NCBI GenBank assembly: GCA_030653365.1
Contig: JAURZL010000019.1
Span: forward strand, 186,001 to 250,000
DNA length: 64,000 bases
Reading direction: 5' to 3'
Origin: Anaerolineaceae bacterium
GTDB taxonomy: Bacteria > Chloroflexota > Anaerolineae > Anaerolineales > Anaerolineaceae
Shown here: positions 38,541-43,109 of the stretch, piece after piece
Layout: each line of letters starts with the position of its first letter
Position numbering within the stretch: position 1 is the stretch's first letter
Program-made: the position numbers and the translations under genes
The notes under the pieces: generated by a model
Told to the model about the DNA's origin: nothing
The model's database searches: none
Seen by the model: only the letters and a program-made list of their open reading frames with translations

Positions 38541-38998
38541 ATGGCGAGAGCACCTTTTCAAGTTTTAGTTATTCCGTATCGCATCAATTTGCATAACCAA
38601 TTAGAATTCGCCGTGTTGAAAAGAGCGGATGATGGGTTCTGGCAAGGGATTGCTGGTGGGGGTGAGGATGAAGAGACTCCGTTTGAGGCAGCCAGAAGAG
38701 AGACCTTTGAAGAAACCGGGATCGAACCTACATCGAATTTTTTACGATTGGACACTTTAGACTCAGTTCCTGTAACAGCCTTCAAAGACAGCTTACTATG
38801 GGGCGAGGATGTTTTTTTTGATCCCACTCTTGTTTTGGGGTTTTAGCATCCAATTTCGAAATCAAGATATCTCAGGAGCACAGCGCTTTTGGCTGGTTCC
38901 TGTATGACCAGGCACATCAGATCCTTAAATTCGATGGTAATAAAACCGCTTTATGGGAGTTGAACCAGAAACTGAAGGGAATTGGTCCGAGAGGTTAA
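38541..38998 (+). pseudogene. Nudix hydrolase interrupted by a frameshift
   Basis: The first part (to the stop at 38844–38846) gives 101 residues with a perfect Nudix box ending in 'RETFEETGI'. The protein then ends in mid-fold. In the frame one base earlier, the following DNA reads 'CFGVLASNFEIKISQEH' and 'LYDQAHQILKFDGNKTALWELN', which is the normal C-terminus of this Nudix group, up to TAA at 38996–38998. The whole span is 458 bp, one base short of 153 codons. One missing base after about 38819, perhaps in the CCC at 38822–38824, explains it. It is either a real mutation or a sequencing error. A short AAGGA/TCCTT hairpin covers the ribosome site. Confidence 0.8.
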
Positions 38999-39266: not shown

Positions 39267-39287
39267 CTATCTTTATAAGGAGATTGG

Positions 39288-40925
39288 TTGAAAACTATCA
39301 TTGCTGGTGCTCTAGGAGAATGTGTACATGTGGCAGGTGTCAGTAATTTCCTGCGTTTGGCGGAGCTGGCTGGATGGCGCACCATATTTCTTGGTCCGGC
39401 TGTTTCAATTGAAGATATGATTTCAGCAGCCATCAAAGAAAAAGCGGATATGGTTGGTGTTTCTTACCGGTTGACACCAGAAACCGGTGAACGATTACTG
39501 GCAGAATTTACTGAAGCTGCTGATGAATTGCGGGATCACGGAGTACGCTTTGTTTTTGGAGGCACTCCCCCGGTCGCAGATAAAGCTCAAGCAAGCGGTT
39601 TTTTTGAAAAGGTATTCTCTGGTAAAGAAAGTGATGCAGAAGTTGTACGATTTTTACGTGATGAAGAAACTGAACAGGAGAATGAAGTAAATTTTCCTAA
39701 AACTACCATTGAAAGAATCAAATGGAAAACACCTTACCCTTTATTGCGCCATCATTTTGGATTGCCTACCATGCAAGCCACCATTGATGGTATTCAAAAA
39801 ATTTCTGAAGCTCAAGTATTGGATGTGATTTCATTGGGGATCGATCAGGATGCCCAGGAAAATTTCTTCCATCCAGAGAGGCAGGATCCACGAAGGAAAG
39901 GCGCTGGTGGTGTCCCGGTTAGGTCAGCAGAGGATTATCAGCTCCTATATGAAGCCAGTCGGTGTGGAAATTTTCCAATGGTGCGTACGTATTCCGGAAC
40001 AGATGATTTTATCCAACACGCAGAAATTGCTAACAAAACAATCAACAATGCCTGGTGTGCCATTCCTTTGTTCTGGTTCAATCAAATGGATGGTCGCGGA
40101 CCCTGGGATTTGGAAGGATCGATTAGAGAACACCAAAAAGTCATGGCATGGTATGGAGAAAGAAATATTCCAGTGGAATTAAATGAACCGCATCATTGGG
40201 GAATGCGTGATGCCCCTGATGTTATATATGTGGTCGCTGCTTACCTTTCGGCTTACAATGCCAGAGCTATGGGGGTTAAGGATTATATCGCCCAGTTTAT
40301 GTTTAACAGTCCTCCCGGATTATCGGATGCGATGGATCTGGCAAAAATGCTTGCCATTCTGGAAATGATTCAACCTCTTGAGAATGAAAATTTCAAGATA
40401 TGGCGCCAGACCAGGACCGGGTTGTTGAGTTATCCGGTGAATCCAATCGCAGCCATAGCACAACTGGCAACCAGTGTATATCTTCAGATGGCACTCAAAC
40501 CGCATATTGTGCATGTGGTTGGGTATTGTGAAGCGGATCATGCAGCCACAGCTAAAGACGTAATCGAATCCTGTCAACTGGCACAACGGGCAATAGAGAA
40601 TTCAATAAATGGTGCCCCAGATATGACTTTTGATCCAGCAATCCAGTCAAGGATAAAAAAGCTCGTATCAGAAGCTTCTTTAATTCTTGAAGAGATTAAA
40701 AAAATAAAATCTGACTCAGATGGTGGGTTGGTAGATCCTCAGGTTCTGGCAACCTCAGTATTACAAGGCATTCTGGATGCGCCACAGTTAAAAAATAACC
40801 GCTTTGGGCGTGGAGCCATTCGTACTCAAATTGTCAATGGATGTTGCGAAGCGATCAATTTAGAAGGAAATATCATTTCTGAGACAAAACGGCTACATCA
40901 AATTAGAAAAGGAAACACAACATGA
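39288..40925 (+). CDS. B12-binding-domain protein with mutase-like C-terminal domain
   Basis: A 545-residue protein. Residues 1–110 look like a cobalamin-binding Rossmann domain: 'ECVHVAGV' gives the H-x-x-G core with His14 as possible cobalt ligand, although the usual Asp two residues before it is Cys12; 'LGPAVSIEDMI', 'ADMVGVSYRL' and 'FVFGGTPP' follow. Residues about 165–470 resemble the TIM-barrel of B12-dependent amino-acid mutases such as the glutamate mutase epsilon subunit, with 'FMFNSPPGLSDAMDLAKMLA'. The substrate is unknown. The start is TTG at 39288 after AAGGAG. Its stop overlaps the opine-dehydrogenase start by 4 bp. Confidence 0.72.
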   Translation: MKTIIAGALGECVHVAGVSNFLRLAELAGWRTIFLGPAVSIEDMISAAIKEKADMVGVSYRLTPETGERLLAEFTEAADELRDHGVRFVFGGTPPVADKAQASGFFEKVFSGKESDAEVVRFLRDEETEQENEVNFPKTTIERIKWKTPYPLLRHHFGLPTMQATIDGIQKISEAQVLDVISLGIDQDAQENFFHPERQDPRRKGAGGVPVRSAEDYQLLYEASRCGNFPMVRTYSGTDDFIQHAEIANKTINNAWCAIPLFWFNQMDGRGPWDLEGSIREHQKVMAWYGERNIPVELNEPHHWGMRDAPDVIYVVAAYLSAYNARAMGVKDYIAQFMFNSPPGLSDAMDLAKMLAILEMIQPLENENFKIWRQTRTGLLSYPVNPIAAIAQLATSVYLQMALKPHIVHVVGYCEADHAATAKDVIESCQLAQRAIENSINGAPDMTFDPAIQSRIKKLVSEASLILEEIKKIKSDSDGGLVDPQVLATSVLQGILDAPQLKNNRFGRGAIRTQIVNGCCEAINLEGNIISETKRLHQIRKGNTT

Positions 40926-42019
40926 CAAAGAAAACTCATTTCACTGTGATAGGCGCTGGCCATGGTGGGCGTGCAATGGCTGCTCATTTAGGGTTGATTG
41001 GATTTCCAACAGTTCTATACAATCGAACAATGGATCATATTGCAGCAATTAAGGAATTAGGTGGAGTTGACCTGGAAAGCAATAATGGTGATTTAAGAGG
41101 ATTTGGAAAATTAGAGAAAGTAACCTCCAACATCGCAGAAGCATTAGAATTAGCTGAAATGATAATGGTAGTTGTTCCTTCTTCTGCTCATGTAGATATT
41201 GCTACTGCATGCGCTCCTCATTTGAAGGATGGACAAATTGTTGTTTTGCATCCAGGACGAACTTGTGGTGCAATAGAGTTTGCAAAAGTTATCCGTGATA
41301 ATGGGTGCACCGCTGATGTGACCATCGCAGAAGCTGAGACATTTATTTACGCCTCTCGATCTGATGGACCAGCCCAAGCCCGAATTTTTCGCATTAAAGA
41401 GGCAGTACCCTTAGCTGCATTACCAGCTTCAAAAACCGCCATGGTATTAGAAAAAATTCATAAGGCTTATCCTCAATTTATTGATGGGGGAAATGTCCTA
41501 CAGACAGGATTAAATAATATGGGTGCTATTTTTCATCCAGCCATCAGCTTGTTAAACGCTGGTTGGATTGAATCGACACACGGTGATTTTCAGTTCTACA
41601 TCAATGGTGTTACTCCTTCGGTTGCCAGGGTTTTGGAAGCTTTGGATCGGGAACGAGTAACAGTTGCCTCATCCCTTGGGATTAGAGCTCGAACAGCGAT
41701 GGAATGGTTAACGCTGGCTTATAACGCAACAGGGGATACGCTGGAAGAAGCAATTCATAATCAACCTGGGTATTACGGTATTAAAGCACCCCCAATCTTA
41801 AACCATCGTTATTTGTTTGAGGATGTACCGATGAGTCTGGTGCCCATTGCCTCCATTGGACAGCGTTTTGGCGTCTCTGTGAGAGGGATCGACTCCATCA
41901 TTCGCCTGGCCTGTATCATCCATCGTACTGATTATTGGCGTAGGGGACGTACGATTGAAAAGCTTGGATTGGATGTGCTGGATGTGGATGAATTAACCCA
42001 TTATGTCATGGAAGGTTAG
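40922..42019 (+). CDS. Octopine/opine dehydrogenase-family oxidoreductase
   Basis: A 365-residue protein of the NAD/NADP octopine/nopaline dehydrogenase family. The Rossmann motif 'FTVIGAGHGGRAMAAHL' (residues 7–23) and 'TVLYNRT' start the cofactor domain, and 'VVVPSSAH' and 'LHPGRTCG' follow. The C-terminal domain has 'LNNMGAIFHPAISLLNAG' near 200, where the conserved Asn and His of opine dehydrogenases lie. Such enzymes join an amino acid and a 2-oxo acid by reductive amination. The ATG overlaps the B12-binding gene's stop (ATGA), so the two are translated together. A nucleotidyltransferase follows after 4 bp. Confidence 0.85.
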   Translation: MTKKTHFTVIGAGHGGRAMAAHLGLIGFPTVLYNRTMDHIAAIKELGGVDLESNNGDLRGFGKLEKVTSNIAEALELAEMIMVVVPSSAHVDIATACAPHLKDGQIVVLHPGRTCGAIEFAKVIRDNGCTADVTIAEAETFIYASRSDGPAQARIFRIKEAVPLAALPASKTAMVLEKIHKAYPQFIDGGNVLQTGLNNMGAIFHPAISLLNAGWIESTHGDFQFYINGVTPSVARVLEALDRERVTVASSLGIRARTAMEWLTLAYNATGDTLEEAIHNQPGYYGIKAPPILNHRYLFEDVPMSLVPIASIGQRFGVSVRGIDSIIRLACIIHRTDYWRRGRTIEKLGLDVLDVDELTHYVMEG

Positions 42020-42023
42020 AAGA

Positions 42024-42830
42024 ATGGTTAATGGAATTTCGGGTATTAAAGAACATACCAGGGAAGAACGATGGATTGTTGTTGAAAAATTAATTCCACT
42101 ATGGAAAAAGAAGTTTGGCGAAAATCTCCTGGGCATCGCTGTCAGCGCGTCTGTTGCCAGGGGTGAAGATCTGGCTTATTCTGATCTGGAACTGGACGTG
42201 TTTCTACGTGAAAAACCAGAAAAAAGGGAAGAACAGTATCTACAGCGGGTATTCGATGGAATGTTGATTGAAGCCATTTATCATACACCTGAAGAATTTC
42301 TCAGGGAAAGAGAAACAATTCCCCCGCATTGGCACCTCTCTGCTTCTGACCGGTGGCTGGTTGTTTACAATCAAGAATTTTTTGATGATTTATTGATGAA
42401 ATTACAGAAAATTCAACATAGCCGAAATGATTTTTTGGAAGCTGCAACGCGAGGAAGGTACGAGTTGCAAGAGTCTTTCTGTAAAGTATTGAATGCTATT
42501 GAGATGAAGAACCATAAAGGTATCAGTCTATTGTTGATGGATGCTGTTCTGCACTTACTGCAGATTCTGTCATTAATTAATCAACAGCCATTTACTACAT
42601 TCAGTCAATTAATTTCCCAGGCTGGAGAATTCAAGATAAAACCTGATAGATTTAATGATTTATTAGACCTGCTTGTAAATGGGACATACCAGGATTTGGA
42701 GAAGGTGAGAGAGATTTGTCTGGTTGTGTTTGGAAGCTTGGAGAACATATTCAGGCAAAATGGAATTGACTTATATAAAGATAAATTGGATCCTAACCTG
42801 CCAAATCGTACTGTGGTTTGGCCTATCTGA
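42024..42830 (+). CDS. Nucleotidyltransferase-domain protein, kanamycin-NTase-like
   Basis: A 268-residue protein. The nucleotidyltransferase core is 'SASVARGEDLAYSDLELD' near residues 39–56, in which the Ser–Asp–Leu–Glu replaces the usual D-x-D metal pair of KNTase-like enzymes. The C-terminal half (about 135–260) is helical, like the KNTase C-terminal domain. It may add a nucleotide to a hydroxyl group of a small molecule. The ATG at 42024 is chosen because GGAAGG lies eight bases upstream; an ATG at 42003 would overlap the dehydrogenase. The 4-bp gap implies one operon. It is not called a resistance gene. Confidence 0.78.
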   Translation: MVNGISGIKEHTREERWIVVEKLIPLWKKKFGENLLGIAVSASVARGEDLAYSDLELDVFLREKPEKREEQYLQRVFDGMLIEAIYHTPEEFLRERETIPPHWHLSASDRWLVVYNQEFFDDLLMKLQKIQHSRNDFLEAATRGRYELQESFCKVLNAIEMKNHKGISLLLMDAVLHLLQILSLINQQPFTTFSQLISQAGEFKIKPDRFNDLLDLLVNGTYQDLEKVREICLVVFGSLENIFRQNGIDLYKDKLDPNLPNRTVVWPI

Positions 42831-42848: not shown

Positions 42849-43109
42849 ATGTACAACAGAAAAAAGCTAGATCACGAGCGGTTGGAACTAATTCTTGTAC
42901 AAATTTTAATGAAGATTCGCCTGATCATACTGGTGCTTGGGATTTTAATATTTTTGTATGCATTGGCAATCATGCTGAATTCACTGATTGCTGGAATATT
43001 GATTGGCGTGCTGGGTCTATTATTATCGCTTTTGGGAACCTCGTTTTGGATGATCACCAAAACAGCCCAGTTTTTGACCTGGATTGCATTGGTGGGAAAG
43101 AAGGAGTAG
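42849..43109 (+). CDS. Small two-helix membrane protein
   Basis: An 86-residue protein with a charged N-terminus (residues 1–20) and two hydrophobic segments at about 24–43 and 47–70. The ATG has GAAGG six bases upstream. It starts 18 bp after the nucleotidyltransferase stop and is probably part of the same transcript. No family is recognised. It is convergent with the putative anti-sigma gene, with 8 bp between the stops and no obvious terminator between them. Confidence 0.6.
   Translation: MYNRKKLDHERLELILVQILMKIRLIILVLGILIFLYALAIMLNSLIAGILIGVLGLLLSLLGTSFWMITKTAQFLTWIALVGKKE

Follow-up and report, generated by a model that had tools for sequence, protein, structure and literature searches.

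A B12-binding, mutase-like protein and its opine dehydrogenase family partner in Chloroflexota

Background

To our knowledge, few adenosylcobalamin-dependent rearrangements have been described, and each of them marks a distinct pathway. The glutamate mutase of Clostridium consists of two chains, GlmS and GlmE, and has the cobalamin motif DxHxxG. Its substrate is bound by R66, R100, R149, E171 and Y177 (PMC10947579), the three arginines forming the so-called arginine claw, while Glu330 of GlmE is thought to hold the adenosyl ribose (PMC3958899). D-ornithine 4,5-aminomutase and lysine 5,6-aminomutase, also barrel enzymes, carry a pyridoxal phosphate (PLP) lysine.

Zhang et al. (2009, BMC Genomics 10:78, PMC2667541) predicted a B12-dependent family with an N-terminal B12-binding domain that was 'always adjacent' to a pfam02317 octopine/nopaline dehydrogenase. 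Their text on this family reports it from 11 bacteria in Firmicutes, Chloroflexi and Thermotogae, with genes for D-Ala-D-Ala ligase and asparagine synthase nearby in several organisms. The same text mentions a predicted TIM-barrel-like part at the N-terminus and a link to COG5012, and assigns no reaction. Our literature search found no characterisation of this predicted family.

Results

Organization of the locus

The window, i.e., the whole 64,000-nucleotide stretch of Anaerolineaceae DNA that was analysed, contains three consecutive forward-strand genes, here called A, B and C. Gene A (39288..40925) encodes a single-chain, B12-binding, mutase-like protein of 545 aa, as judged from a Pfam profile, an AlphaFold2 model and fold matches; it starts with TTG at 39288, preceded by a probable ribosome-binding site, AAGGAG, at 39277..39282. 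Gene B (40922..42019) encodes a 365-aa member of the opine dehydrogenase family, and its start overlaps the end of gene A by the sequence ATGA. After a gap of 4 bases, gene C (42024..42830) encodes a kanamycin-nucleotidyltransferase-like protein of 268 aa from an ATG at 42024, with an alternative in-frame ATG at 42003. These coordinates bear out the three tightly coupled genes of the initial annotation. No riboswitch was found at the gathering threshold in the window or in the nine type II/III loci scanned; among nine type I loci scanned, one SAM riboswitch was located, beyond gene B of locus L046. In the promoter and terminator scan, matches were no more numerous than in shuffled sequences.

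Domains and predicted fold of protein A

Protein A matches the Pfam B12-binding profile at residues 3-107 (E 9.3e-12, 45.3 bits, cut-off 32.1), and no other Pfam domain was found in it above cut-off. Its AlphaFold2 model (pLDDT 83.4; stretches 186-188, 205-210 and 267-269 below 50) shows a B12 domain at approximately residues 1-125, followed by a TIM-type barrel at approximately residues 133-538. The predicted B12 domain is GlmS-like (1cb7_A, TM 0.75 by target), which gives the cobalamin-fold match that the initial annotation had proposed to look for. The closest solved structure to the modelled barrel is GlmE (1cb7_B, Z 31.1, 3.1 Å over 368 residues), followed by lysine 5,6-aminomutase (Z 29.3), ornithine aminomutase (26.3) and methylmalonyl-CoA mutase (21.3); TIM barrels are common, and non-B12-mutase barrels score up to Z 18.8 in the same list. 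The barrel was detected by predicted fold and is invisible to sequence search. Since its hhalign alignments with GlmE were not significant (E 0.9 and E 0.53), the kinship of the two barrels, and with it the earlier suggestion of a C-terminal part like the barrel of B12-dependent amino-acid mutases, rests on the predicted fold.

The motif at 39321..39338 reads G-E-C12-V-H14-V-A-G17 (CxHxxG for its last six residues), with a Cys at the position where DxHxxG normally has Asp, as had been noticed at the outset; C12 aligns with the Asp of the OraE protein encoded in the same genome. This replacement is present in 90/90 type I rows, in 30/31 aligned A sequences and in 81/81 type I ORFs, while the type III copy has Asp. 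The genome also encodes a cobalamin adenosyltransferase (PF01923, E 1.8e-46).

Corrinoid proteins of methyltransferases carry an N-terminal helical cap. The B12 domain of protein A starts at residue 1-3 and leaves no space for one, which argues against protein A being a corrinoid methyltransferase or another non-mutase B12 protein. The same reading is disfavoured by the barrel, which ranks glutamate mutase and the aminomutases first, and by an A homologue that is fused to MutL, a family of mutase reactivases. In its favour, the B12 profile of protein A also matches corrinoid proteins (7xcn_M, E 1.3e-5), and the 2009 text links its predicted family to COG5012 (PMC2667541). On balance, we consider this reading unlikely.

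Comparison with glutamate mutase and the aminomutases

Glutamate mutase and protein A appear to have in common a GlmS-like B12 domain, a GlmE-like barrel and the ribose-binding glutamate: in an hhalign alignment that is not significant, the column of GlmE Glu330 corresponds to E415, which is invariant (31/31). In the same non-significant alignment (E 0.9), however, the columns of the arginine claw (R66, R100 and R149) hold H156, Q190 and Y235; that of E171 holds C257, or A258 after a shift of one made by eye, and that of Y177 holds F/Y264. Because the claw positions are His, Gln and Tyr in this alignment, protein A is probably not a glutamate mutase. It also differs in being a single chain with Cys for Asp, and no match to PF06368 was found in protein A or elsewhere in its genome. 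A fused glutamate mutase converting glutamate to 3-methylaspartate, on which B would then act, would account for the shared domain pair and the best fold match, and AsnB, which amidates aspartate, adjoins A-B in some genomes; given the aligned residues and the lack of a PF06368 match, we regard it as very unlikely.

The B12 domain of protein A is related to that of the OraE encoded in its own genome (hhalign E 1.1e-5), and its modelled barrel shares the aminomutase fold (Z 26-29). Nevertheless, the position of the PLP lysine, Lys629 in OraE, is occupied by Ala, Met or Leu in the A family (31/31), and a PLP aminomutase was rejected on the ground that this lysine is missing from the Rossmann domain.

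Protein B and its pairing with A

Protein B matches Octopine_DH (PF02317) with E 4.3e-48 and 163.6 bits (cut-off 30). The closest solved chain is 1bg6, an N-(1-D-carboxylethyl)-L-norvaline dehydrogenase (E 7.7e-74, B residues 5-353), so that the family assignment made earlier stands. The Rossmann glycines G11, G13 and G16 are kept in 23/23 B sequences, as is H205, which aligns with the His of the octopine dehydrogenase HP motif. Judging from its family, reductive condensation of an amino acid with a 2-oxo acid is the probable kind of activity of this candidate enzyme. Protein B is similar in sequence to the 1bg6 enzyme and to octopine dehydrogenase, but its gene adjoins a B12 mutase-like gene.

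Of 181 confirmed stretches, the search for relatives retained the best 80, all of them Chloroflexota by their titles. Gene B adjoins gene A (same strand, within 2.5 kb) in 90/90 type I rows, representing 88 distinct loci; in one of the 90 rows, AsnB lies between them. Since no type I locus examined lacks the pair, its recurrence goes beyond chance. An opine dehydrogenase is also kept in 17/20 type II loci and in the sole type III locus. The position of gene B varies, being downstream of A, upstream of A or beyond MutL, and the link has therefore survived rearrangement. Additionally, the distances of A and B co-vary (Spearman 0.41 over 74 loci, above all 999 permutations). A-type proteins match in 128/396 class genomes, and the cultured Anaerolineae with such loci include Bellilinea caldifistulae and Anaerolinea thermolimosa (L003 and L009); no match was obtained when plasmids were searched with A and with its homologue from type II. 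The proposed coupling of an amino-acid-mutase-like B12 protein to an opine dehydrogenase family enzyme thus held in every type I row. The neighbourhood check suggested for the trio had a divided outcome: A-B is conserved far beyond its own genome, and C is not.

Gene C

Gene C resembles the ANT(4')-I model NF033061 of NCBIfam (E 1.5e-16), although its 60.8 bits do not reach the cut-off of 350, and it scores 26.1 bits against KNTase_C, just under the cut-off of 26.4. The KNTase-like core noted initially is borne out at scores below the family cut-offs. Its D54-x-E56 aligns with the D-x-E of kanamycin nucleotidyltransferase (1kan, YSDIE), an acidic pair which we take to be metal-binding. Within the type I set of 90 rows, C lies beside A-B only in its own genome and in L005, where the copy is 70% identical and likewise tightly spaced. 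In 249 Anaerolineia genomes searched at E 1e-8, it matched its own genome and one 25%-identical copy (2/249).

The initial annotation had read the three genes as a pathway ending in nucleotidylation, for which the tight spacing at both loci and the aligned acidic residues speak. C was not found (E 1e-8) in 247/249 class genomes, against matches of A-type proteins in 128/396; membership of C in the A-B pathway was therefore rejected, and we consider a terminal nucleotidylation extremely unlikely. C looks like a local addition outside the conserved module.

A reactivase-fused branch and other neighbours

In a second branch (type II), the A homologue is fused to a MutL-type reactivase (PF13941, E 4.8e-80). 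The MutL family also adjoins OraE in an operon of the genome studied here. Near gene A of the window there is no MutL, and the genome has two MutL-family genes at other places; it is possible that MutL acts on A in trans. MutL exceeds the cut-off in 26/28 genomes with a strong A match (G184 through its fusion) vs 158/400, and was not found in the other two (G283 and G361). We did not use this co-occurrence as support, since in the cases listed same-order genomes without A mostly have MutL too.

Type II loci contain an RpiR-SIS regulator cluster (13/21, plus L124) and the parts of a dipeptide-type ABC importer, namely a family-5 solute-binding protein (13/21) and permeases (14/21 and 13/21). 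Single type II loci hold genes for a gamma-glutamyltranspeptidase, an ornithine-racemase-like protein, an amidohydrolase and an AAT-type hydrolase. All of these would suit a pair that is catabolic everywhere, with B oxidatively splitting an opine-type compound to yield an amino acid and a 2-oxo acid, and A rearranging the freed amino acid for central metabolism. Type I loci, however, do not have the importer set among their recurrent neighbours, and amide ligases occur in a minority of these and in the type III locus L125, where a Ddl-like (D-Ala-D-Ala-ligase-like) gene is directly behind A. We therefore regard general catabolism as plausible but rather unlikely.

A same-strand AsnB gene occurs within 2.6 kb in 21/90 type I rows, with none on either side in 69/90, and a Ddl-like gene in 7/90 (6 distinct loci). 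A short AsnB orthologue is present in 10/392 class genomes; of the seven orthologues with at least 53% identity, six have an A match no more than 1.5 kb away. No close AsnB was found in the genome of the window, and neither ligase gene is near A-B there. Given this and the 69 rows lacking a same-strand AsnB in that range, a ligase step does not apply generally. Few neighbours were named by eye as antiporter-like: cluster 9 in 7 loci and cluster 20 in 5, the latter directly before A in four loci (L036, L048, L060 and L069).

Discussion

By description, the A-B pair belongs to the family type already predicted by Zhang et al. (PMC2667541): it shares the N-terminal B12 domain, the pfam02317 neighbour and the occurrence in Chloroflexi, and the Ddl/AsnB vicinity is matched in relatives of A, though not at the window locus. 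The 2009 text on the predicted family makes no mention of glutamate mutase kinship, the Cys motif, a nucleotidyltransferase or a MutL fusion with an importer. The opinion that the combination was not a described one thus has to give way for the A-B pair, in print as a prediction, and may hold for the chemistry.

The domain make-up of A and B, the predicted fold, the conserved pairing and the fusion of a homologue to a reactivase are computational observations. Based on the B12 domain, the GlmE-like barrel, the apparently kept E415 and the MutL fusion of a homologue, we read A as a mutase. With moderate confidence, we propose that it is an adenosylcobalamin-dependent, PLP-free carbon-skeleton mutase that works with the opine dehydrogenase B. 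The B12 binding, mutase chemistry, order and direction of steps and substrate class that we infer would be as follows. The N-terminal Rossmann domain of A would hold B12 base-off, with His14 as the lower ligand, and in the glutamate-mutase-type barrel the adenosyl radical would start a 1,2-shift; the substrate would be an amino acid, or a related acid, but not glutamate. B, dependent on NAD(P), would join the amino group of the product of A, or of its partner, to a 2-oxo acid, so that an N-(carboxyalkyl)amino acid is formed. Where a relative has an AsnB-type or D-Ala-D-Ala-ligase-like gene next to the pair, this product would then probably be closed with an amide. For the MutL-fused branch, we think it probable that an imported compound undergoes the same chemistry.

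More speculatively, type I and type III Chloroflexota may use the mutase, the opine dehydrogenase and an AsnB- or Ddl-like ligase to make a single class of metabolites, in which a skeleton-rearranged amino acid is N-linked to a 2-oxo acid and amidated. Type II members would import and dismantle these compounds by means of the importer, hydrolases, opine dehydrogenase and reactivase-fused mutase, and the mutase would catalyse a new adenosylcobalamin rearrangement, its cobalt-ligating His being held by Cys rather than Asp; that this whole picture is correct we think improbable.

For the family flagged in 2009, there is now a likely class of fold, a set of candidate active-site replacements, a fixed partner enzyme and a reactivase-fused sister branch. 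Taken together, these bring a test of its substrate within reach in Anaerolineae available in culture, including Bellilinea caldifistulae and Anaerolinea thermolimosa.

The coupled genes A, B and C

Gene A (39288-40925, forward strand), which encodes a B12-binding, mutase-like protein, has a TTG start with AAGGAG upstream. It shares an ATGA overlap with gene B (40922-42019, forward strand), and gene C (42024-42830, forward strand) lies 4 bases behind B; the coupling of the three genes on one strand described in the initial annotation was thus borne out. Pfam scans located a B12-binding domain at residues 3-107 of A, with no other domain above cut-off, and placed B in the Octopine_DH family; the PDB protein closest to B is N-(1-D-carboxylethyl)-L-norvaline dehydrogenase. 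C resembles ANT(4')-I (E 1.5e-16), yet scores under the curated cut-offs. Matches to C were present in 2 of 249 genomes of the class (its own included, the second at 25% identity) and in L005, a relative's locus with all three genes. Nothing found points to C being part of the A-B module, and its proposed role in the pathway, nucleotidylation, was not supported.

The NUDIX gene 5' of A (38541-38998) carries a frameshift near a T run at about 38836, which may reflect either genuine decay or a fault in the assembly; its counterpart in L005 (9258-9716) is a single intact 152-aa frame. A hydrophobic 86-aa ORF (42849-43109) starts 18 bases 3' of C, and its first 19 residues alone were matched behind C in L005.

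Single-chain (type I) homologues of A

At E 1e-3, A matched 51 of 400 Chloroflexota genomes: 28, including its own, with barrel matches (E ≤2.1e-70; partial in genome G011) and 23 in the B12 domain only. The type I set, drawn largely from the best 80 of 181 confirmed stretches, comprised 90 rows (81 loci and nine further loci, L083-L091), of which 88 are distinct, the own locus included; L090 is L019 reversed and L091 is identical to L004. B was found near A in all 90 rows, extending the coupling beyond the window: in 87 no more than 450 bases downstream, in two upstream, and in the remaining one 2.4 kb downstream with an asparagine synthase (AsnB) gene in between. The divergences of A and B were correlated (Spearman 0.41 over 74 loci; best of 999 permutations, 0.25).

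In 21/90 rows an AsnB gene lay on the same strand within 2.6 kb, downstream in 18 and upstream in 3; Ddl-like ATP-grasp genes were found in 7/90 rows (six distinct loci) and DUF5698/DUF2179 genes in 11/90. The AsnB of L083, the single one scored against models, reaches 570.5 with the model for asparagine synthase B (cut-off 499) and matches 1ct9 (E 1.8e-89). AsnB of this type (E 1e-90) was present in 10 of 392 class genomes. Seven of these were at ≥53% identity, six of them (G018, G005, G112, G669, G377, G414) lying at most 1.5 kb from an A match, the position of A in the seventh, G467, being absent from the match listing; the three at 46-48% identity (G543, G618, G683) belong to genomes outside the A-match set. 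The own genome has no close AsnB copy.

Among other neighbours, a methyltransferase gene lies immediately 3' of B in five loci (L021, L027, L036, L051, L060), that of L036 scoring best with UbiE/MenG-type models, under cut-off. A gene resembling the NhaA antiporter by eye lies immediately 5' of A in four (L036, L048, L060, L069), and a SAM riboswitch (95.5 bits) occurs 3' of the A-B pair at L046:7277-7382.

Fused (type II) and type III homologues

In L082, the A homologue is a 1264-aa protein in which a MutL domain (E 4.8e-80) is fused to the B12 domain and barrel. A search with the mutase part of this protein gave matches in 128 of 396 Anaerolineia genomes, at least 30 of them with a piece at ≥60% identity, counted as type II; most other listed matches, at 36-43% identity, are type I. 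An opine dehydrogenase adjoins the fusion in 17 of 20 type II loci (12 before, 5 after), as a fragment at the contig end in L114; L107 has no adjoining one, and none was found in L109 and L121, whose contigs end near A. In the type III locus, L125, the order is opine dehydrogenase, mutase, Ddl-like ligase.

Clustering of the neighbours of these 21 loci, with identities from scans of sample members, showed an RpiR-SIS regulator and a family-5 solute-binding protein in 13 loci each (the regulator also in L124 by a separate scan), permeases in 14 and 13 loci, and ATPases, named by eye, in 10. Genes for an ornithine-racemase-like protein and a gamma-glutamyltranspeptidase, identified by scans in L122, also occur in both L122 and L123; L123 further has an amidohydrolase gene and L124 an AAT-type hydrolase gene. 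At L111:6408-10478, mutase and MutL, fused elsewhere, are two adjoining frames with one TAA stop between them.

The own genome also has a putative ornithine degradation operon with OraE-like and MutL genes (L104, C11:63000-82000; MutL from the search, other genes named by eye), which looks like its second B12 mutase system. A longer MutL-like protein (C14:320452-321777; frames of about 570-780 aa) occurs in most same-order genomes searched, with or without A.

Fold and active site of A

The AlphaFold2 model of A, built from 35 type I sequences (pLDDT 83.4), was compared with known structures by Foldseek and VIA-align. The top match was glutamate mutase E (1cb7_B; Z 31.1, 3.1 Å, 368 residues, 15% identity), followed by lysine 5,6-aminomutase (Z 29.3), ornithine 4,5-aminomutase (26.3) and methylmalonyl-CoA mutase (21.3); barrels other than those of B12 mutases reached at most 18.8. 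The N-terminal domain resembles GlmS (1cb7_A; TM 0.75 by target). Based on these two 1cb7 matches, A is modelled as GlmS-like and GlmE-like parts in a single chain, in line with the B12-type fold and mutase-like barrel first suggested for it. The barrel kinship was not visible in sequence-profile comparisons.

The replacement of the usual motif Asp by Cys, noticed initially in A alone, holds throughout type I (GECVHVAG in 81/81 ORFs and in L083-L091) and, as G(K/A/D)CVH(N/S)LG, in 19 of 20 type II loci, the contig of L109 stopping short of the motif; the type III copy has the usual Asp (GDDPHTQG). Among seven further B12-domain matches of the own genome, four have DxH (L127, L128, L129, L131) and two have Glu at the Asp position (L133, L134), while the motif pattern search gave none in L132.

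Across 31 aligned homologues (14 type I, 16 type II, 1 type III), H14, R61, R154, H156, Q190, Y235, N265, D268, R270, E297, N299, W304, R307, R376, H409, E415 and H418 are invariant. According to PMC10947579, glutamate mutase binds glutamate through R66, R100, R149, E171 and Y177. An hhalign alignment of A with GlmE, not significant (E 0.9) and used only as a guide, runs roughly in step with the structural alignment (133-538 on 41-444); it puts H156, Q190 and Y235 of A at the three arginine positions, C257 (A258 after a by-eye shift of one) at E171, F/Y264 at Y177, and E415 at Glu330, a residue suggested in PMC3958899 to hold the ribose. In ornithine aminomutase, PLP is bound by Lys629. We take its equivalent to be the lysine 11 residues past the cobalt-ligating His in the own genome's OraE; the homologues of A carry Ala, Met or Leu at this position. 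The apparently replaced glutamate-binding positions and the missing PLP lysine point to a PLP-free enzyme whose substrate is not glutamate.

A previously predicted family

A new B12-dependent family was predicted by Zhang et al. (2009; PMC2667541) in 11 bacteria belonging to the Clostridia, Lactobacillales, Chloroflexi and Thermotogae. Its members were reported to carry the B12 domain at the N-terminus and to be encoded, without exception, next to pfam02317, with D-Ala-D-Ala ligase and asparagine synthase nearby in several organisms. The A-B module shares the N-terminal B12 domain, the pfam02317-type neighbour and, in some loci, nearby Ddl or AsnB, a neighbour set obtained before the comparison; matched by description, not sequence, it is very probably this family. 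The initial view that the combination had not been described thus does not hold for the A-B pair as a prediction, but may hold for the chemistry. No later characterisation was found in the literature searched, which misses most subscription journals.

The A-B module belongs to an already predicted, uncharacterised kind. Its most likely mechanism would be an adenosylcobalamin-dependent carbon-skeleton rearrangement by A, linked with a reduction or oxidation of the opine type. The ligases near A at some type I loci (AsnB or Ddl-like) and at the type III locus (Ddl-like) would speak for synthesis, the importers and hydrolases at type II loci for breakdown.
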